Below are positions 4,236-15,894 of a DNA stretch of 64,000 bases, one piece after another. Within the stretch, counting starts at the first letter, position 1, and each line of letters starts with the position of its first letter. The stretch spans positions 1 to 64,000 of the forward strand of contig NZ_JACHCI010000014.1 of NCBI RefSeq assembly GCF_014200675.1, written 5' to 3'. Below the pieces are notes generated by a model. The model worked only from the letters and a program-made list of their open reading frames with translations, did no database searches and had not been told where the DNA came from. The translations under genes and the position numbers were made by a program. The DNA comes from Janthinobacterium saanense (GTDB lineage: Bacteria > Pseudomonadota > Gammaproteobacteria > Burkholderiales > Burkholderiaceae_D).

Positions 4236-5258
4236 ATGCCACGCCTTGCTTCTCCCCTGCTCTTATTACCACTGTTCGTCTCCTGCGCCGCCCTGGCGCA
4301 AGCAGACGCCCCATCCCCCCTCTCCACTGTGTTGCAAACCTACGACAGCGACCCGCACGGCGACTTGCGCGCCGTGGTCGTGCTGCGCGATGGCGCCCTG
4401 GTCGCCGAACGTTATTACAACGGCGAGACGGCGGACACCCTGCACGATATCCGCTCGGCCGGCAAAAGCATCACCGCCCTGCTGGCGGGCGCCGCCGTGG
4501 CGCGCGGCCAGCTGCAAACGACGGGCACCGTGGGCCAGTACTGGCCCGAAGTCGCCAACAGCCCTGCCGGCAAGGTGGTGCTGGACGACGTGCTGACCAT
4601 GCGTTCCGGCCTGGCCGCGTTTGACGAAGACGAAAACTCCCCCGGCAATGAAGACAAGCTCGATGAGGCGCCAGATCCCAGCGATTTCGTGCGCGGCGTG
4701 CCATCGAACGTCACGCCTGGCACCGTCTACCGCTATAACTCGCTGACCGCCTATATCGCCGGGCGCGTGGTGGAACAGGCCAGCGGCGCCGACCTGGAAA
4801 CCTTTGCGAGCAAAACCCTGTTTGCACCGCTGGGCATCACGCGCTGGAGCTGGGGCCGCGATGTCGCGGGCCACCCCAAAGGCCAGGGCAACCTGTCCCT
4901 GCGCGCGCGCGACACGGCGAAGATAGGCCAGATGGTGCTCGATGAAGGTGTGTTTGACGGCCGTCGCGTGATCGAGGCCAGCTGGATCAAGGCGGCATTG
5001 GCGCCGCGCGTGGCCACCGGCAAGGCAGACCGCTATGCCGATCACTATGGCTATTTCTGGTATGCGAAGACGCAGGAGATCAGCGGCGAAAAAATTCCCG
5101 TCTTTTTCGCCTCTGGCAATGGTGGCAACAAGATCTATGTGATTCCCGCACGCCACATGGTAGTCAGCATCGCATCGAGCGCCTATGGCAAGGGCTATGG
5201 CCAGCGCCGCTCGGAAGAGATTTTGAAGGCCTTGCTACAGGCAGAAAAAGCCCGCTAG
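4236..5258 (+). CDS. Secreted serine hydrolase of the beta-lactamase/DD-peptidase fold
   Basis: A 340-residue protein with an N-terminal signal peptide (VSCAALAQA, cut near residue 22). The SxxK nucleophile motif is S74-A-G-K77 in DIRSAGKSITALLAG. The second motif appears as Y167-N-S in place of the common YxN. This belongs to the broad Pfam beta-lactamase family (class C-like) of esterases, D-aminopeptidases and amide hydrolases; antibiotic hydrolysis should not be assumed. The start is the first ATG with a weak GGATAG upstream. It follows the iron genes by 60 nt, and I see no clear promoter of its own. Confidence 0.75.
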   Translation: MPRLASPLLLLPLFVSCAALAQADAPSPLSTVLQTYDSDPHGDLRAVVVLRDGALVAERYYNGETADTLHDIRSAGKSITALLAGAAVARGQLQTTGTVGQYWPEVANSPAGKVVLDDVLTMRSGLAAFDEDENSPGNEDKLDEAPDPSDFVRGVPSNVTPGTVYRYNSLTAYIAGRVVEQASGADLETFASKTLFAPLGITRWSWGRDVAGHPKGQGNLSLRARDTAKIGQMVLDEGVFDGRRVIEASWIKAALAPRVATGKADRYADHYGYFWYAKTQEISGEKIPVFFASGNGGNKIYVIPARHMVVSIASSAYGKGYGQRRSEEILKALLQAEKAR

Positions 5259-6516: not shown

Positions 6517-8043
6517 TCAGTTGGCCGCGACTTGCGGCTCAGGCTCGCCCCAGCCACCGCCCAGGGCGCGGATCAGCGCCACGGTGGTGACGGCGCGGTT
6601 GCCCCGCAATTGCACGGCATTGCGCTCGATGGTGGCCAGGTTGCGCTGTGCGTCCAGCAGGTCCAGGTAGCTGGAACGGCCGGCTGCGTACAGTTTTTGC
6701 GCCAGGTCGGCAGAACGGCGGGCCGATACCACGGCTTCATCGATCTGCTGCGTCTGACCCGACAGGATGCGCAGGCCGGCCAGGTTGTCTTCCACCTCGG
6801 CGAACGCCACCAGCACGCTCTGGCGATAGGTCGCCACCGATTCTTCCAGCTGCGCTTCGCTGCGCGTCACGGCTGCCTTGTTGCGGCCGCCATCGATGAT
6901 CGGCATCGACATCAGGGCGCCCAGCAGCCAGGAGCGGCTGCTCCACTTGAAGATGTCCGCGACGGTGTCACCCGTGCCGCCAGCAGCGGCATTCAGGGTC
7001 AGGGCCGGGAACATGGCCGATTTCGCCACGCCGATACGCGCATTCGACGCTTCCATGGTGCGCTGGGCCGACGCGATGTCGGGACGGCGCTCCAGCAAGG
7101 ACGAAGGCAGGCCAGCCGGTATCACGGGCAGGAAAGCGCTGTCTTGCAGCGGATTGACCGACGCCGTGAAACTGGCGGCCGGTTTGCCCAGCAAGACGGC
7201 CAGCGCATGCTCGTTGGTGGTGCGCTGGCGCTGCAGGCCAATCGCTTCGGCGCGCGCCGTCGACAGCTCCGTGCGGGCACGGGCCAGATCGAACTCGCCG
7301 ATGTCGCCCAGGTCGTAGCGGCGCTGGTTCACATGCACGCTTTCTTCACGCAGGCGCACCGTCTGTTCCAGGGTCGCCAGTTCCGCATCGGTTTCACGCA
7401 GCATGAAATAAGTCTGCGCCACGTCCGCTTGCAAGGAGAGCAGCACCGAACGGTAAGTCGCTTCCACCGCCAGCGCATCGTTGCGCGCAGCGCTGACATT
7501 GGACGATACGCGGCCGAACAGGTCGACTTCGTAGCTGGCCGTCAGGTTGGCCTGGTACACATTGCCAGGCGCGACTGGTGTGCCTTCCGGCAGCGACAGC
7601 GACAGTGCGGAAGCGCGGTTGCGCTGTGCACCCACGTTCACGCCCACTTGCGGAATGCGGTCTGCTTCGGCGATACCGGCAATCGCCCTCGCCTGCTTGA
7701 CGCGGGCGGCGGCCACGGCCAGGTTGGCGTTGGCCTTGGTCGCTTCGCCTATCAGCTCGGTCAAGGCCGGGTCATTAAAGGCCAGCCACCATTCGCCACG
7801 CGCCTGGCGTTCCGCCGGCACGCCCTGCTTCCAGCGCGTGCCATCGGATGCCGTCTGCACGGCCGCCAGCGTTTGATCTTCCTTGAACGCGGCGGGCGTG
7901 GCTATTTGCGGCTGCTTGAACTCAGGCGCAGCGCAGGCCGCCAGCAGCACGGCAGCGGCCATGGCCGTCAAGGTCGTGCGCAAGGCAGTTGCAGCCCTGG
8001 GTGCAGCCATGCGTGTCATGACATTTTTTTTCACGATACTCAC
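6517..8043 (-). CDS. RND efflux outer-membrane factor lipoprotein (OprM/NodT family)
   Basis: A 508-residue TolC-like channel that completes the tripartite pump with the two upstream genes. The N-terminus has a hydrophobic segment ending in lipobox LLAAC, so it is likely acylated and exported, followed by two outer-membrane efflux protein repeats. The start is probably GTG at 8043: AAGGAG lies 8 nt upstream, and this GTG overlaps the TGA of the pump gene (GTGA), implying translational coupling. In-frame ATGs a few codons later are alternatives. It is the last gene of the operon. Confidence 0.92.
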   Translation of the reverse strand: MSIVKKNVMTRMAAPRAATALRTTLTAMAAAVLLAACAAPEFKQPQIATPAAFKEDQTLAAVQTASDGTRWKQGVPAERQARGEWWLAFNDPALTELIGEATKANANLAVAAARVKQARAIAGIAEADRIPQVGVNVGAQRNRASALSLSLPEGTPVAPGNVYQANLTASYEVDLFGRVSSNVSAARNDALAVEATYRSVLLSLQADVAQTYFMLRETDAELATLEQTVRLREESVHVNQRRYDLGDIGEFDLARARTELSTARAEAIGLQRQRTTNEHALAVLLGKPAASFTASVNPLQDSAFLPVIPAGLPSSLLERRPDIASAQRTMEASNARIGVAKSAMFPALTLNAAAGGTGDTVADIFKWSSRSWLLGALMSMPIIDGGRNKAAVTRSEAQLEESVATYRQSVLVAFAEVEDNLAGLRILSGQTQQIDEAVVSARRSADLAQKLYAAGRSSYLDLLDAQRNLATIERNAVQLRGNRAVTTVALIRALGGGWGEPEPQVAAN

Positions 8044-11000
8044 GATACATCTCCTTCCAGATCCAGCACAGGCGCTGCAGCATGCTTGACCACCGCATCG
8101 GCCGGCTTTTTCTCAAAACGCTGCGCCAGAGTGCGCAGCAATACATAGAACACAGGCGTCAGGAACAGGCCGAAGAAGGTCACGCCCAGCATGCCGGCAA
8201 ACACCGCCACACCCATCGCATGACGCATTTCCGAACCGGCGCCGTGCGAGAACACCAGGGGCACGACACCCATGATGAAGGCGATCGACGTCATCAGGAT
8301 AGGACGCAGACGCAGACGGCAAGCTTCCAGCGCCGCTTGCACGATGGTGCGGCCATGGTCTTCCAGTTCACGCGCAAACTCCACGATCAGAATCGCATTC
8401 TTCGACGCCAGCCCCACCAGCACGAACAGGGCGATCTGCGTAAAGACGTTGTTGTCGCCACCGGTCAGCTTGACGCCGAGCAAAGCGCACAGAATCGACA
8501 TCGGCACGATCAAAATCACCGCCAGCGGCAGGGTCCAGCTCTCGTACTGGGCAGCCAACACCAGGAATACCAGCAGCACGCACAGCGGGAACACATAGAT
8601 CATCGTGTTACCGGACAAGATGTCCTGGTAGGTCAGCTCGGTCCATTCAAACGAAATCCCTTGCGGCAGTACTTCCTTGGCGATGCGTTCCAGCGCGGCT
8701 TGCGCCTGGCCACTCGATACACCCGCTGCAGGACCGCCGTTGAAGTCGGCTGCGGCGTAGGCGTTGTAGCGCTGTACGCGGTCCGGACCATAGGTATCCT
8801 TGACGCGCATCAGCGACGACAGAGGAATCATCTCGCCCTTGTCGCTGCGTACTTTCAGCTGCGCGATGTCTTGCGCATGCGAACGGAAGGCTGCATCGGC
8901 TTGCACACGGACCTGATAAGTGCGGCCAAACTGGTTGAAGTCGTTCACGTACAGCGAACCGAGGTTGATCTGCAAGGTCTGGTAGATCGTTTGCAGCTGC
9001 ACGCCCATCTGCTTGGCTTTCACGCGGTCGACATCGGCAAACAGCTGTGGCACGTTGATCTGGTAACCCGAGAACACGCCCGCCAGTTGCGGCGTCTGGT
9101 AAGCCTTGGCGGCCAGCGCCTGCGTCGCGTTGTACAGCGCGTCGTAACCGAGGTTGCCACGGTCTTCGATCATCATCTTGAAGCCGCCGATGGTACCCAG
9201 GCCGTTGACCGGCGGTGGCGGGAAGACCATGATGAAGGCGTCCTGGATACCGCCCAGGCGCTTGTTGATCTCGGCCGCGATGGCGCCGCCCGACAATTCC
9301 TTGGTGGTGCGCTGGTCAAACGGTTTCAAGGTGGCGAACACGATGCCCGAGTTAGGTGCATTGGTGAAGTCGTTGATCGACAGGCCGGGGAAGGCAATCG
9401 TCGACTCAACGCCAGGCACCGATTTGATCACGTCGGACATGCGGCGCACGACATCTTCCGTGCGGTCCAGCGAGGCGGCGTCAGGCAATTGCGCAAAACC
9501 GACCAGGTACTGTTTATCCTGGCCTGGCACGAAGCCGGCCGGCACTGCCTTGAAGGTGAAGATGGCGGCAATCACCAGCAGCACGTACACGCCCAGCGAC
9601 GCGCTCTTGCGGCCCAACACACCTTTGACGCCCGCTTCATAGCGGTGCGAAGCACGGCCGAAGAAACGGTTGAACCAGGCGAAGAAGCGGCCGAAGACTT
9701 TATCCATCACGCGCGTCAGCGCATCTTTCGGTGCATCGTGCGGTTTCAAGAGCGCGGCCGACAAGGCTGGCGCCAGGGTCAGCGAGCTGAAAGCGGAGAT
9801 TACGGTCGAAATTGCAATCGTCAGTGCGAACTGGCGATAGAACTCGCCCGACAGGCCAGGAACAAAGGCGATCGGCACGAACACGGCGCACAGCACCAGG
9901 GCGATGGCGATAATCGGGCCACTCACCTCTTTCATGGCCTGGATGGTGGCGTCGCGTGGCGACAGGCCTTCTTCGATATTACGCTCGACGTTTTCTACCA
10001 CCACGATGGCGTCATCGACCACGATACCGATGGCCAGCACGAGGCCGAACAGCGACAGGGTATTGATCGAGAAACCAAAGCCCAGCATCACGGCGAAGGT
10101 GCCGACGATGGAAACCGGAACGGCCAGCAGTGGAATGATGGACGCGCGCCAGGTTTGCAGGAAGATGATCACGACCAGTACCACCAGTGCGATCGCTTCG
10201 AGCAGGGTGTGGATCACGGCTTCGATCGAGGAGCGCACGAACTGGGTCGGGTCGTACTCGATGCGGTATTCCACGCCTTGCGGGAAGTCTTTTTTCAGCT
10301 CTTCCATCTTGGCGCGTACATCGCTGGACAATTGCAGCGCGTTGGCGTTAGGTGCTTCGAAAATACCCATGCCGACGGCCGGATTATTATTGAGCAGCGA
10401 ACGCAGCGAGTAGCTATTGGCGCCCATTTCCACCCGCGCCACATCGCGCAGGTGCGTCACTGCGCCATCGCCATTGGTACGCACGATGATGTCGCCAAAC
10501 TGCTCTGGCGTTTGCAGACGGCCCTGGGTGTTGACGGTCAGCTGGAATGGCGCATTCTTCGCTGGCGACGCGCCGATCACACCGGCGGCGACCTGCACGT
10601 TCTGTTCGCGGATGGCGTCAACGACATCATTGGCCGTCATGCTGCGGGCAGCGACTTTTTGCGGATCGAGCCAGATGCGCATGGCGTAATCGCCGGCGCC
10701 GAAGATCTGGATATCACCCATGCCCGGCAAGCGTGCCAGCTGGTCCTTAACGTTCAGCACGGCGTAGTTACGCAGATACATATCGTCATAGCGCTTGTTC
10801 GGCGAGACCAGATGCACCACCATGGTCAGATTGGGCGAGGACTTGACCGTCGTCACACCGATCTGGCGCACTTCTTCCGGCAGGCGCGGCAAGGCGCGCT
10901 GCACGCGGTTCTGCACCTGCGTTTCAGCTTGCTCGACGTTGGTGCCGATCTTGAAGGTCACGGTCAGCATCATCGCGCCGTCCGAGGTGTTTTGCGAAGA

Positions 11001-11240
11001 CATGTAGAGCATGTTCTCGACACCGTTGATCTGCTCTTCGAGCGGTGCTGCCACCGTCTCGGCGATCACTTTCGGGTTTGCACCCGGATACTGCGCGCGC
11101 ACCACCACCGATGGCGGCACGACGTCAGGATATTCGGAGATGGGCAAGCCGAAAATCGACAATAGCCCCGCTACGAATATGATGATCGACAAGACCGCCG
11201 CAAAAATCGGCTTGTCGATGAAAAAGCGTGAAAAATTCAT
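8040..11240 (-). CDS. RND multidrug efflux pump, inner-membrane transporter (AcrB/MexB, HAE1 family)
   Basis: A 1066-residue proton/drug antiporter, the usual length for HAE1 pumps. It begins MNFSRFFIDKPIFAAVLSII, typical of AcrB. The proton-relay motif GIVVDDAIVVVENVER carries the adjacent Asp pair in the fourth membrane helix, and the Lys of the tenth helix is in ASKNAILIVEFA. The two large periplasmic loops are full length. It starts 3 nt after the fusion-protein stop, with AAGGAA before the ATG. Substrates are likely multiple drugs, dyes or solvents, but the spectrum cannot be predicted. Confidence 0.95.
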   Translation of the reverse strand: MNFSRFFIDKPIFAAVLSIIIFVAGLLSIFGLPISEYPDVVPPSVVVRAQYPGANPKVIAETVAAPLEEQINGVENMLYMSSQNTSDGAMMLTVTFKIGTNVEQAETQVQNRVQRALPRLPEEVRQIGVTTVKSSPNLTMVVHLVSPNKRYDDMYLRNYAVLNVKDQLARLPGMGDIQIFGAGDYAMRIWLDPQKVAARSMTANDVVDAIREQNVQVAAGVIGASPAKNAPFQLTVNTQGRLQTPEQFGDIIVRTNGDGAVTHLRDVARVEMGANSYSLRSLLNNNPAVGMGIFEAPNANALQLSSDVRAKMEELKKDFPQGVEYRIEYDPTQFVRSSIEAVIHTLLEAIALVVLVVIIFLQTWRASIIPLLAVPVSIVGTFAVMLGFGFSINTLSLFGLVLAIGIVVDDAIVVVENVERNIEEGLSPRDATIQAMKEVSGPIIAIALVLCAVFVPIAFVPGLSGEFYRQFALTIAISTVISAFSSLTLAPALSAALLKPHDAPKDALTRVMDKVFGRFFAWFNRFFGRASHRYEAGVKGVLGRKSASLGVYVLLVIAAIFTFKAVPAGFVPGQDKQYLVGFAQLPDAASLDRTEDVVRRMSDVIKSVPGVESTIAFPGLSINDFTNAPNSGIVFATLKPFDQRTTKELSGGAIAAEINKRLGGIQDAFIMVFPPPPVNGLGTIGGFKMMIEDRGNLGYDALYNATQALAAKAYQTPQLAGVFSGYQINVPQLFADVDRVKAKQMGVQLQTIYQTLQINLGSLYVNDFNQFGRTYQVRVQADAAFRSHAQDIAQLKVRSDKGEMIPLSSLMRVKDTYGPDRVQRYNAYAAADFNGGPAAGVSSGQAQAALERIAKEVLPQGISFEWTELTYQDILSGNTMIYVFPLCVLLVFLVLAAQYESWTLPLAVILIVPMSILCALLGVKLTGGDNNVFTQIALFVLVGLASKNAILIVEFARELEDHGRTIVQAALEACRLRLRPILMTSIAFIMGVVPLVFSHGAGSEMRHAMGVAVFAGMLGVTFFGLFLTPVFYVLLRTLAQRFEKKPADAVVKHAAAPVLDLEGDVS

Positions 11241-12770: not shown

Positions 12771-13634
12771 TCATGACTCGGGTTCTTGTCCCAAGCCAGC
12801 CACAAAACTGGCAATTTCACCCAATACGTGCACTCTGCACGCGCATTCATTGCGGGCGCCCGCTTCATTGAGGGGCGCGGCGGGCATGCGCCGCACGGTC
12901 GTCTTGATGCCACAAGCGATCAGCTTGCTGCCGTATTGTTCAGCCTCATCGCGTAATGGGTCATCTTCGCTGGACAGGATGAGCGCTGGCGGCAAATTCT
13001 TCAGCCGGCTCGACTGCAGCGGCGACGCGTACGGATGGGCGCGGTCAGCGGCGTTCGGCAAATAGCCACGGTAGGCGGCGGCGCATTTATCAGCCACTTC
13101 CACCAGTTCCGGACAAGTCGGCAAGGCGCGCATCGAGCACGACGACAAGCCGGGGTCCAGCATGGGCATGATCAAGACCTGGCCAGCGAGCGGCGGGCCG
13201 CCCCGGTCGCGCGACATCATGGCGCACACGGCAGCCAGGTTGGCGCCCGCCTCGATGCCGGACACCACCATCTGCTTGCCCGTCCAGCCCAGCTTGGTCT
13301 TGTTCTTTTTCGCCCACAGCAGCACCGCATGCGCGTCTTCGACGGCGGCGGGAAATGGGCGCACCTTGGCCAGGGTGTAATTCGATGCCAGCACCACGTG
13401 GTCCGGGTTGCTCAACACCAGGCAGCGCAGAAAGTCGTCAGATTCGTCGAGGTCGCCATCGACAAAACCGCCGCCGTGGAAAAATACGATCAGGCTGGAC
13501 TGCCTGGCGCCAGGCACACCGGCCGTATAGAGCCGCGCAGCGAGCGGCTCTTGCGCGCCCTGCACTTGAATATCGCGTATCTTCAACGCCTGGCCAGGCG
13601 CCAATTCGGCGACCAGCGCACTGACCTGGCTCAT
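12771..13634 (-). CDS. Degenerate alpha/beta-hydrolase (HSL family) lacking the catalytic serine
   Basis: A 287-residue protein with the hormone-sensitive-lipase fold. The oxyanion motif HGGG is at residues 53-56, and the acid-loop region DDPLRDEAE (D225) is intact. The nucleophile elbow, normally GDSAG, reads G126-I-E128-A-G130: the codon is GAG, so Glu replaces Ser. The region expected to supply the catalytic His (after residue 250) has no His in the usual place. It is therefore probably a pseudoenzyme or a protein with a new role, not an active esterase. Its ATG overlaps the stop of the small membrane protein upstream (ATGA), so the two are likely translated together. Confidence 0.75.
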   Translation of the reverse strand: MSQVSALVAELAPGQALKIRDIQVQGAQEPLAARLYTAGVPGARQSSLIVFFHGGGFVDGDLDESDDFLRCLVLSNPDHVVLASNYTLAKVRPFPAAVEDAHAVLLWAKKNKTKLGWTGKQMVVSGIEAGANLAAVCAMMSRDRGGPPLAGQVLIMPMLDPGLSSCSMRALPTCPELVEVADKCAAAYRGYLPNAADRAHPYASPLQSSRLKNLPPALILSSEDDPLRDEAEQYGSKLIACGIKTTVRRMPAAPLNEAGARNECACRVHVLGEIASFVAGLGQEPES

Positions 13635-13843
13635 TGCGCCACCACCGGCTGCACTGCAGCATCGACCACAGTATCATTCAGGCACAGCAGCGCGGCGCGG
13701 CCGACTTCATGGGTCAGGGCGTTATAGCCGCTGGCTTCGGATTGCGCCGCCTGCGAGTACGCGTCCGTATATACCATCGCGGACAAGGCAAGCGCACTCA
13801 GCAATATTGCGAGCACTGCAAAGCTTCCATTTCGATGACCCAT
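13631..13843 (-). CDS. Small membrane-anchored or secreted protein of unknown function
   Basis: A 70-residue protein starting MGHRNGSFAVLAILL, with one hydrophobic segment (residues 8-24) followed by a polar 45-residue tail containing one Cys. I prefer the ATG at 13843, preceded by AGGAG at good spacing, over an upstream extension. It overlaps the following hydrolase-like gene by 4 nt, so both are probably made together. I do not recognise the family. Confidence 0.55.
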   Translation of the reverse strand: MGHRNGSFAVLAILLSALALSAMVYTDAYSQAAQSEASGYNALTHEVGRAALLCLNDTVVDAAVQPVVAQ

Positions 13844-13975: not shown

Positions 13976-14926
13976 ATGAATAAACTGCAGGCAATGGAAG
14001 TATTCATACAGGTAGTCGATGCGGGCGGTTTTACGCGCGCTGCCGAAAACATGCAGTTACCCAAGGCGACCGTCTCGACCCTGATACAGTCGCTGGAAGC
14101 GAGTTTGTCCGTCAAACTGCTGAACCGCACCACGCGACACGTCAGCATCACCTCGGACGGCGCCGCCTATTACGAGCGCTGCGTGCGCATCCTGTCGGAC
14201 GTGCGCGAAGCGGAGGAATCGCTGTCGCGCACCCGGCTCAGCCCCAGCGGACGCTTGCGCGTGGATGCGCCCACGGCCCTGGCCAGCGAATTGCTGATCC
14301 CTGCCCTGCCCGACTTTTTTGCGCGCTATCCCGACATCGTGCTCGAACTCGGTTGCAGCGACCGCCCCGTGGACTTGATCGAGGAAGGCGTCGATTGCGC
14401 CGTGCGCGGCGGCGAACTGGGCGATTTGAACCTGATCGCCCGGCGCGTGGGCCAGTTGCATTTCATGACTTGCGCCTCGCCCGGCTACCTGGCACAGCAT
14501 GGTACGCCCACGCACCCGAATGATTTGACGGCCCACCGTGGCGTCAACTTTTTCTCGGCCAAGACGGGCAAGACCTTCGACTGGGATTTTACGCGCGACG
14601 GCGAACGTATCCAGATCGCCATGAACAGCCATATCGCGCTGAACGATTCGAACGCCTACACGGCGGCCGGACTGGCGGGACTGGGCGTCATCCAGATGAC
14701 CCACTTCATGCTCGAACCCCTGAAGCGGCAAGGCAGGATGATCGAATTGCTGGAAGACTGGCATTCAGACCCGCTGCCCATCCACGTGATCTATCCGCCG
14801 AACCGCCACCTGTCCGCCAAGGTGCGCGTATTCGTCGAATGGGTCGCCGACATGTTTTCCACCCACCCGGCCACGCAGCTCAAGAACAAGCATGCGCGGC
14901 CTGAACTCCCGGAGACACAGCCATGA
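13976..14926 (+). CDS. LysR-family transcriptional regulator
   Basis: A 316-residue protein with an N-terminal winged helix-turn-helix (residues 1-60; DAGGFTRAAENMQLPKATVS is the recognition region) and a LysR substrate-binding domain from about residue 90. The DNA-binding part resembles the large subgroup with the QLEASLSVKLLNRTTR type of linker helix. AAGGAA precedes the ATG. Its stop overlaps the start of the dehydrogenase gene (ATGA), so the regulator and enzyme form one translationally coupled unit, and the dehydrogenase substrate is a candidate effector. Confidence 0.9.
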   Translation: MNKLQAMEVFIQVVDAGGFTRAAENMQLPKATVSTLIQSLEASLSVKLLNRTTRHVSITSDGAAYYERCVRILSDVREAEESLSRTRLSPSGRLRVDAPTALASELLIPALPDFFARYPDIVLELGCSDRPVDLIEEGVDCAVRGGELGDLNLIARRVGQLHFMTCASPGYLAQHGTPTHPNDLTAHRGVNFFSAKTGKTFDWDFTRDGERIQIAMNSHIALNDSNAYTAAGLAGLGVIQMTHFMLEPLKRQGRMIELLEDWHSDPLPIHVIYPPNRHLSAKVRVFVEWVADMFSTHPATQLKNKHARPELPETQP

Positions 14927-15894
14927 CCGCAGTTCCCGCAACACCGCACAAGATCGTCTTCCTCGACCGCGACAGCCTGATCGCCACCGTCCGCGCACCA
15001 GCGTTTGTTCACGAATGGGCCGAATATCCGCATACCAAGGGCAGCGCACAAACCGTGGAACGTTTGCAAGACGCCAGCATCGCCATCAGCAACAAGGTGC
15101 CGCTGCGCGCGGCCGAACTGGCGCAACTGCCGCAACTGAAAATGATCGCCGTGGCCGCCACCGGCACGGACATCATCGACCTGGCCGCCTGCCGCGAGCG
15201 CGGCATTATCGTCGCCAACATCCGCGACTACGCGCGCGCCACCGTGCCCGAACACACGCTGGCGCTGATGCTGGCCTTGCGCCGCCAGTTAATCGCCTAC
15301 CGGGCGGACGTGGAAGCGGGCCTGTGGCAGGCATCCGAACGTTTCTGCCTGTTCGGCCACCCGATCCGCGACCTGGCCGGCAGCCGCCTGGGCTTGCTGG
15401 GCTATGGCGCGCTGGGCAAGGCCGTGGCCCAGTTGGCGCGCGCCTTCGGCATGCAGGTGGCCGTGCATAACCGCTCGCCCATCAACGAGACCGATGTGCT
15501 GGAAGTATCAAAAGAAGAACTGCTGGCCACCTCCGACATCCTCAGCCTGCATTTGCCGCTGACCGACAAGACGCGCAACATCATCGGCGCGCTTGAGCTG
15601 GCCAGCATGAAGCCGACCGCCCTCTTGATCAATACGGCGCGCGGCGGCCTGGTCGATGAAGCAGCGCTGGCCCATGCCTTGCACACCGGCGTGATCGCCG
15701 GCGCCGGCTTCGACGTACTTAGCCAGGAGCCGCCGCCGCCCGACAACGTGCTGCTGAAGCTGCGCCTGCCCAACTTTATCCTCACGCCGCACACGGCCTG
15801 GGCAAGCGGCGAGGCCATGCAGAAACTGGCCGAGCAGCTCATCGACAATGTGGAAGCGTTTGAACGGGGCGCGCCGACGAATCTCGTCGGCTGA
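14923..15894 (+). CDS. D-2-hydroxyacid dehydrogenase (NAD(P)-dependent)
   Basis: A 323-residue cytosolic oxidoreductase interconverting a 2-keto acid and its D-2-hydroxy acid (glycerate, hydroxypyruvate or similar). The nucleotide site is GLLGYGALGKAVA (GxGxxG). The catalytic Arg is in NTARGGLVDE, the Glu in VLSQEPP and the His in LTPHTAWAS, so the active site is complete. GGAGA precedes the start. The overlap with the LysR gene suggests a small self-contained metabolic module. The exact substrate is not evident. Confidence 0.88.
   Translation: MTAVPATPHKIVFLDRDSLIATVRAPAFVHEWAEYPHTKGSAQTVERLQDASIAISNKVPLRAAELAQLPQLKMIAVAATGTDIIDLAACRERGIIVANIRDYARATVPEHTLALMLALRRQLIAYRADVEAGLWQASERFCLFGHPIRDLAGSRLGLLGYGALGKAVAQLARAFGMQVAVHNRSPINETDVLEVSKEELLATSDILSLHLPLTDKTRNIIGALELASMKPTALLINTARGGLVDEAALAHALHTGVIAGAGFDVLSQEPPPPDNVLLKLRLPNFILTPHTAWASGEAMQKLAEQLIDNVEAFERGAPTNLVG

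Follow-up and report, generated by a model that had tools for sequence, protein, structure and literature searches.

LlpE, an HSL-type protein without the catalytic serine, is conserved beside LysR and RND efflux genes in Janthinobacterium and related bacteria

In this study, an HSL-type protein encoded in a 64,000-nucleotide stretch of Janthinobacterium saanense DNA (the whole stretch is called the window) was compared with its relatives. The window gene is llpE, the counterpart of the gene found in ceoR-llpE-ceoAB and bpeT-llpE-bpeEF-oprC of Burkholderia. Sequence comparisons showed that the Glu-type LlpE, which carries Glu at the position of the catalytic serine, is not a Ser-His-Asp hydrolase, and that it is conserved and operon-linked. 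By analogy with the plant gibberellin receptor GID1, Glu-type LlpE may be a GID1-like protein that binds a ligand without hydrolysing it and belongs to an efflux/stress-response module, a reading to which we assign a probability of about 0.5.

The llpE gene of the window

The cluster in the window runs in the order lysR / llpE / mexE / mexF / oprN, with llpE lying between the divergent LysR gene and a MexE/CeoA-type adaptor gene. Its features are as follows.

6517..8043, minus strand: outer-membrane-factor-like ORF (OprN-type) that overlaps the permease ORF; family named by eye from sequence and position
8040..11240, minus strand: RND permease, MexF/OqxB-like; RND_permease_1 1502 bits (cut-off 1250); 69% identical to the CeoB region of the B. 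cenocepacia record L169
11244..12488, minus strand: RND periplasmic adaptor, MexE/OqxA-like; RND_mfp above cut-off, MexE model below it at 404 bits (cut-off 714)
12771..13634, minus strand: llpE-like gene, 287 aa; HSL/Abhydrolase_3 fold, Glu128 at the nucleophile position, no catalytic His, CxC at 264-266
13251..13253, minus strand: Glu128 codon GAG (GIEAG elbow)
13631..13843, minus strand: small ORF of 70 aa, predicted to span the membrane once; its stop codon shares bases with the llpE start (ATGA); no Pfam match
13976..14926, plus strand: LysR-type regulator, divergent; 52% identity with the LysR adjoining ceoAB in L169

Beyond the cluster, an ORF at 4236-5258 (plus strand), near the cluster end, resembles by eye a secreted beta-lactamase-family serine hydrolase, and a D-2-hydroxyacid dehydrogenase gene at 14923-15894 (plus strand) shares a few bases with the LysR gene end.

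The LysR / hydrolase / adaptor / permease order matches ceoR-llpE-ceoAB-opcM of B. cenocepacia and bpeT-llpE-bpeEF-oprC of B. pseudomallei, and the neighbours of llpE in L169 were predicted as ceoA and ceoB. Burkholderia LlpE is likewise encoded between a divergent LysR gene and an RND adaptor gene; it is homologous to the window protein along its length (39.5% identity to the B. cenocepacia copy over residues 5-251), falls with it in one clade (99/97) and, in B. cenocepacia, also lacks Ser at the elbow (GHDAG). The two differ in that Burkholderia LlpE has an Asp elbow and a His, whereas the window LlpE has Glu, no His, a CxC motif and an overlapping small TM ORF.

The first-pass annotation knew of no description of such a protein; as llpE, the gene is already published in the bpeEF-oprC / ceoAB operons. 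Excerpts of three papers (PMC4396416, PMC5587915, PMC1557404) present llpE as the first gene of these efflux operons and its product as a putative lipase/carboxylesterase of open role, called periplasmic in one of them; no signal peptide was seen in the window LlpE. According to the same excerpts, llpE is co-transcribed with the pump genes in Burkholderia (PMC4396416, PMC5587915) and the first ceoAB operon came from a chloramphenicol-resistance screen (PMC1557404), and other excerpts show llpE serving as a marker or primer target (PMC5461758, PMC12844865). A literature search, with the primary papers of Nair et al. outside its reach, found no published report of the missing serine of LlpE, nor of two elbow types, the CxC loop or the Glu-linked small TM ORF. 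Thus, the llpE gene and its operon are already known, while the family-wide Ser loss, the two elbows, the CxC loop and the small TM ORF are apparently unreported, as judged from the papers found.

The 287-residue protein matched Pfam Abhydrolase_3 in a profile search (1.2e-48). The HGGG motif is intact at residues 53-56, and the acid loop SEDDPLRDE with Asp225 is kept. The elbow reads G126-I127-E128-A129-G130 where HSL enzymes have GDSAG, so that the nucleophilic Ser of GxSxG is absent. The catalytic His after the last strand is absent as well; the loop that follows this strand, MPAAPLNEAGARNECACRVHVL, holds a sole His, His269, which is not conserved, being Gln at 14 of the 18 loci L006-L023. 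These observations bore out the first description of the protein, namely a kept HGGG and acid loop, Glu128 (codon GAG) at the nucleophile and no His at the usual place. Family IV / bacterial HSL esterases share HGGG and the acid Asp with the window LlpE, but they have the triad Ser and His, and the window LlpE has neither. Because both residues are absent, these alignments exclude ester hydrolysis by the HSL mechanism for Glu-type LlpE. The other HSLs examined in the window's genome carry Ser (GDSAG in L002, GESAG in L003). The locus closest to the window, 99% identical, is that of Janthinobacterium sp. K2E3.

In the AF2 model of the window LlpE, built from 38 orthologues (pLDDT 78.8, pTM 0.82), residues 1-12, 159-169 and 256-263 were of low confidence; the latter two form the pocket region, and because its pLDDT is <50 the pocket geometry is not derivable from the model. 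Foldseek and VIA-align placed the model among HSL esterases, which gave its best PDB matches. The fold is shared with family IV enzymes (EstDL136, PestE 2yh2/3zwq, EstE1 and EST2) at VIA Z values of about 28-31, rows that are tied; the top row was the chloramphenicol-metabolising EstDL136 (Z 31.2), with many rows within Z 1 of it. The window LlpE, which lacks the catalytic Ser and His, scored 142.4 bits (1.5e-41) against the NCBIfam model CHL_hydrolase (NF033149), under the curated cut-off of 500, and 199.3 bits against LipP1 (NF058653), under the curated cut-off of 350. Membership of either family was rejected on these scores.

Serine loss and operon linkage across the LlpE family

The similarity search gave 229 matched rows, and repeats of the same sequence as well as two split copies (L164, L166) were removed before counting. 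The resulting 179 distinct genes, near copies included, had Glu in 140, Asp in 21 and Gln in 1 (162 LlpE-like genes) and Ser in 17 (other HSLs). Ser was therefore found at the elbow in 0 of 162 LlpE-like genes and in 17 of 17 other HSLs. Orthologues with an intact GDSAG, which would have spoken for a decaying copy in the window, were looked for and numbered 0 among the 162. Glu128 proved conserved, as Glu in 140 of the 162 genes and in 103/103 close orthologous loci (a count that includes the window copy and some genomes twice), in agreement with the initial proposal of a conserved protein without Ser nucleophile or catalytic His; the remaining 7 of the 110 loci with a match were Ser-bearing paralogues. 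Across 145 aligned genes the Glu codon was GAA in 68 and GAG in 57, which indicates that the Glu residue is held while the third base drifts.

Searches of wider scope gave consistent results. Among 399 genomes of the order, all 31 places matching at 1.6e-75 or better had Glu, Asp or Gln. A score gap followed, the next match being at 6.3e-65, and six places beyond it (L002, L108, L111, L205, L206, L226) had GDSAG; the places examined below the gap, which were some of those present, all had Ser. Only 7 of 370 genomes of the class passed 1e-60; they included the window's genome and one Glu copy (L203), and the other matches examined (L227-L231) had Ser. No mexE was seen downstream of the 17 Ser genes, for which at least 1.3 kb of downstream DNA was available in 15 and <0.5 kb in 2, although a Ser HSL located before mexE and far from LlpE could be missed, since the genes were gathered by similarity to LlpE.

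For trees, the set was thinned to 61 Glu, 20 Asp, 1 Gln and 17 Ser genes. In a careful tree of 62 genes, built without the elbow and C-terminal columns, a branch (99/97) separated the 50 non-Ser genes from the rest, and the Asp genes grouped together (100/100); L172, a long Glu row, bordered the Ser group with weak support (74/34). The best tree contained 3 changes of the Glu label, and a single clade of Glu and Gln was not rejected (AU p 0.154), results that fit one origin of the Glu elbow as well as several. The dN/dS values of the window llpE against its 18 nearest relatives were 0.04-0.15, and those of mexE 0.03-0.14, indicating that Glu-type llpE is under purifying selection in the pairs measured. 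Reading frames were intact in all distinct copies examined other than L164 and L166. In L164 (Janthinobacterium genome G270) llpE is split over two frames, and in L166 (G271, a 48%-complete assembly) it is partial; each is a pseudogene or an assembly error.

By tblastn, both neighbours, LysR and MexE, were found at 127 of the 140 Glu-type genes, and mexE lay 3′ of llpE in 129/140 Glu-type, 21/21 Asp-type and 1/1 Gln-type genes. The first-pass annotation had pictured a pseudoenzyme with a membrane partner. The absence of the Ser-His-Asp machinery, the conservation of the protein and its pairing with a small TM ORF stood, but the main neighbours, LysR and the RND pump, had been missed, and these are present in the Asp type too, without the small ORF. 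Ten of the 140 Glu-type genes had no mexE downstream (8 with LysR, 2 without), and one more could not be scored; L150 was scored as lacking LysR because of a long open frame, and a closer look found that it has one. At L212 and L213, LysR is on the same strand. Behind the pump-less llpE genes were Old Yellow Enzyme genes (identified by Pfam at L146 and L154, from the opening sequence at L152), luciferase-like monooxygenase genes (by Pfam at L140, from the opening sequence at L161), a gene for a Yip1 protein (L155) and several without a clear link. The pump-less copies with LysR suggest that the LysR-LlpE pair can move without the pump, sometimes beside flavoenzymes; its company with Old Yellow Enzyme or luciferase-like monooxygenase genes hints at an electrophile-response theme. 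Some genomes have two LlpE copies (L139/L140 in G055, L143/L144 in G240, L159/L160 in G253), one with and one without the pump or LysR.

Asp-type and Glu-type LlpE

The Asp type was found in Burkholderia cenocepacia, B. multivorans, Caballeronia and Mycetohabitans, with the elbows GHDAG and GDDAG. It keeps HGGG, the acid Asp and a His at the HSL position, each in 21/21 genes, and in an alignment of B. cenocepacia LlpE with 2yh2 the LlpE His falls on the catalytic His. This complete Asp-His-Asp set suggests catalysis in the Asp branch. The Glu type was found in Oxalobacteraceae, Cupriavidus and Comamonadaceae and has lost the His. Of the 140 Glu-type genes, 139 retain the acid Asp and one has a gap there, while the first oxyanion Gly is changed in 49/140 and the His of HGGG is Pro in 10. 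One further operonic LlpE (L202 / L221) has a Gln elbow, GDQAG, and Glu in place of the acid Asp.

On the basis of the Asp-type residues, LlpE might still be an enzyme, now with a carboxylate nucleophile. The Asp type would use its Asp-His-Asp set as haloalkane dehalogenases and epoxide hydrolases do, and the Glu type would be a derivative of altered chemistry; such an LlpE would detoxify an electrophile also exported by the pump. The oxidoreductases of the Old Yellow Enzyme and luciferase-like families behind some pump-less copies are in keeping with such a role. However, the Glu type has no His to activate water, and its oxyanion Gly is altered in the 49 genes mentioned. To our knowledge, neither a carboxylate-nucleophile enzyme of the HSL family nor a Glu nucleophile at the elbow of an alpha/beta-hydrolase has been described. 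According to excerpts of PMC11878206, the fold includes enzymes whose Asp nucleophile acts on C-halogen or C-O substrates; these excerpts do not mention a Glu nucleophile at the elbow. We regard continued catalysis of this kind as rather unlikely.

The Glu type has a motif of its own in the C-terminal segment. CxC near the start of the last helix was present in 127/140 Glu-type genes, CxxC in 2 more, and H-x-x-C occurs in this loop in three Cupriavidus-like copies (L172, L197, L217); in 8 genes the segment is truncated or shows just one Cys, and in 3 the aligned part is free of Cys. The CxC count was zero for the segments of the 21 Asp-type, 1 Gln-type and 17 Ser-type genes, the missing Cys of the Ser type being weak evidence because its segments were shortened by local alignment. 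In the model, the CxC lies just before the last helix (266-280 in the model, residues 267-281) and not clearly at the His position, in a loop modelled at pLDDT <50-67. Selenocysteine in this CAC loop, suggested by an in-frame TGA in some matches, was ruled out, the TGA being a stop near the C-terminal end.

A broader scheme that joins both forms would make LlpE an HSL-derived family that abandoned Ser, stayed tied to a LysR-RND module and split into an Asp-His-Asp form, possibly a carboxylate-nucleophile enzyme, and a Glu/CxC form with a new metal- or thiol-sensing site made from the three former catalytic loops, which, with a one-TM peptide, reports electrophile or metal stress to LysR; we consider this composite scheme improbable. 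Slightly less credible again is that the Glu type is simply a thiol or metal sensor, in which Glu128, Asp225 and CxC, now carried by the three catalytic loops, bind a metal or provide a redox/electrophile-sensitive thiol pair signalling to LysR. The restriction of the cysteine motifs to the Glu type argues for such a sensor, as does the retention of the acid Asp and Glu while the oxyanion loop drifts, but the 11 Glu-type genes with one Cys, a truncated segment or none, the uncertain placement of the CxC relative to the His and the shortened Ser-type segments all count against it.

The small membrane protein and possible roles of LlpE

The small ORF of the window, from the ATG at 13843 to the stop at 13633-13631, contains one hydrophobic stretch, and its stop overlaps the llpE ATG (13634-13632) by four bases (ATGA), exactly the overlap with a 70-residue membrane protein noticed at first. 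The gene pair is conserved. A small TM ORF accompanies 119 of the 140 Glu-type genes, overlapping llpE by 4 nt in 109 cases, and 0/39 non-Glu-type genes, including 0/21 Asp-type genes, by a hydropathy rule (one row of its alignment A3, L154, is a spurious ORF). Twelve of the 21 Glu-type genes without it are outside the window's family; the other 9 are in the family and failed the rule, and a looser scan gave candidates in some of them. In the thinned set it was found in 40/48 in-family vs. 1/13 other Glu-type genes. Its dN/dS was 0.24-0.37 across the 17 comparisons for which the ratio was defined. From charge and hydropathy, the protein is predicted to be N-in with a periplasmic tail, a topology that would leave little contact surface for a soluble cytoplasmic LlpE.

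AcrZ is a small partner of AcrB, and by this likeness LlpE and the small TM protein could together serve the pump as a structural accessory, LlpE being a scaffold without ligand. The overlapping gene pair and the adjacency to mexEF would fit, but 8 Glu-type copies with LysR and without mexE retain llpE, several with a candidate small ORF, and Asp-type operons have no small ORF; we therefore find the accessory role doubtful, marginally more so than a thiol or metal sensor. Decay of an esterase gene that lost its serine in this strain only, for which the two split or frameshifted copies might be cited, is ruled out for practical purposes by the fixed Glu across the lineage, the low dN/dS and the intact state of the other distinct copies.

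The preferred reading, a GID1-like binding role of Glu-type LlpE, takes as its starting point that selection maintains the fold, the Glu, the acid Asp and the CxC loop, which points to a function other than HSL chemistry. LlpE would descend from Ser-His-Asp HSL esterases, its branch having given up the serine; Asp would have come to the elbow in Burkholderia-type LlpE, with the His kept, and Glu, together with His loss, in the LlpE of Oxalobacteraceae, Cupriavidus and Comamonadaceae. As the first enzyme-like gene product of a LysR-controlled MexEF-OprN/CeoAB/BpeEF-type efflux operon, a cytoplasmic Glu-type LlpE might hold in the former active-site pocket a small molecule, toxic or signalling, such as the pump exports, and it might act on LysR or the pump by tuning operon induction or delivery to the pump. 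The overlapping one-TM protein would be a translationally coupled accessory, most likely at the membrane or pump. This path would parallel that of plant GID1, a receptor that arose from an HSL through loss of the catalytic His; as described in excerpts of PMC3531792, GID1 retains the HSL fold, has lost the catalytic His and activity, and binds its ligand in the old pocket. The likeness is by analogy only, in that GID1 keeps the Ser and the window LlpE does not. Deletion of llpE in B. pseudomallei left pump function and specificity for known antibiotics unchanged, according to unpublished data quoted in excerpts of PMC4396416 and PMC5587915, and lends no support to a binding or regulatory role; B. 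pseudomallei LlpE belongs by genus to the Asp-type lineage, so that this result need not speak for the Glu type. Also counting against the binding role are the complete Asp-His-Asp set of the Asp type, which suits an enzyme, and the 10 Glu-type genes without mexE, 2 of which lack LysR as well.

That LlpE is not a serine hydrolase in any sampled lineage would explain why its lipase role has been elusive, and the absence of Ser turns the question of its function towards binding, sensing or carboxylate chemistry. LlpE may also offer, in the harmless host Janthinobacterium, a bacterial case of the passage from HSL to receptor seen in plant GID1, for which the Ser outgroup, the Asp form and the Glu form provide a natural comparison set.
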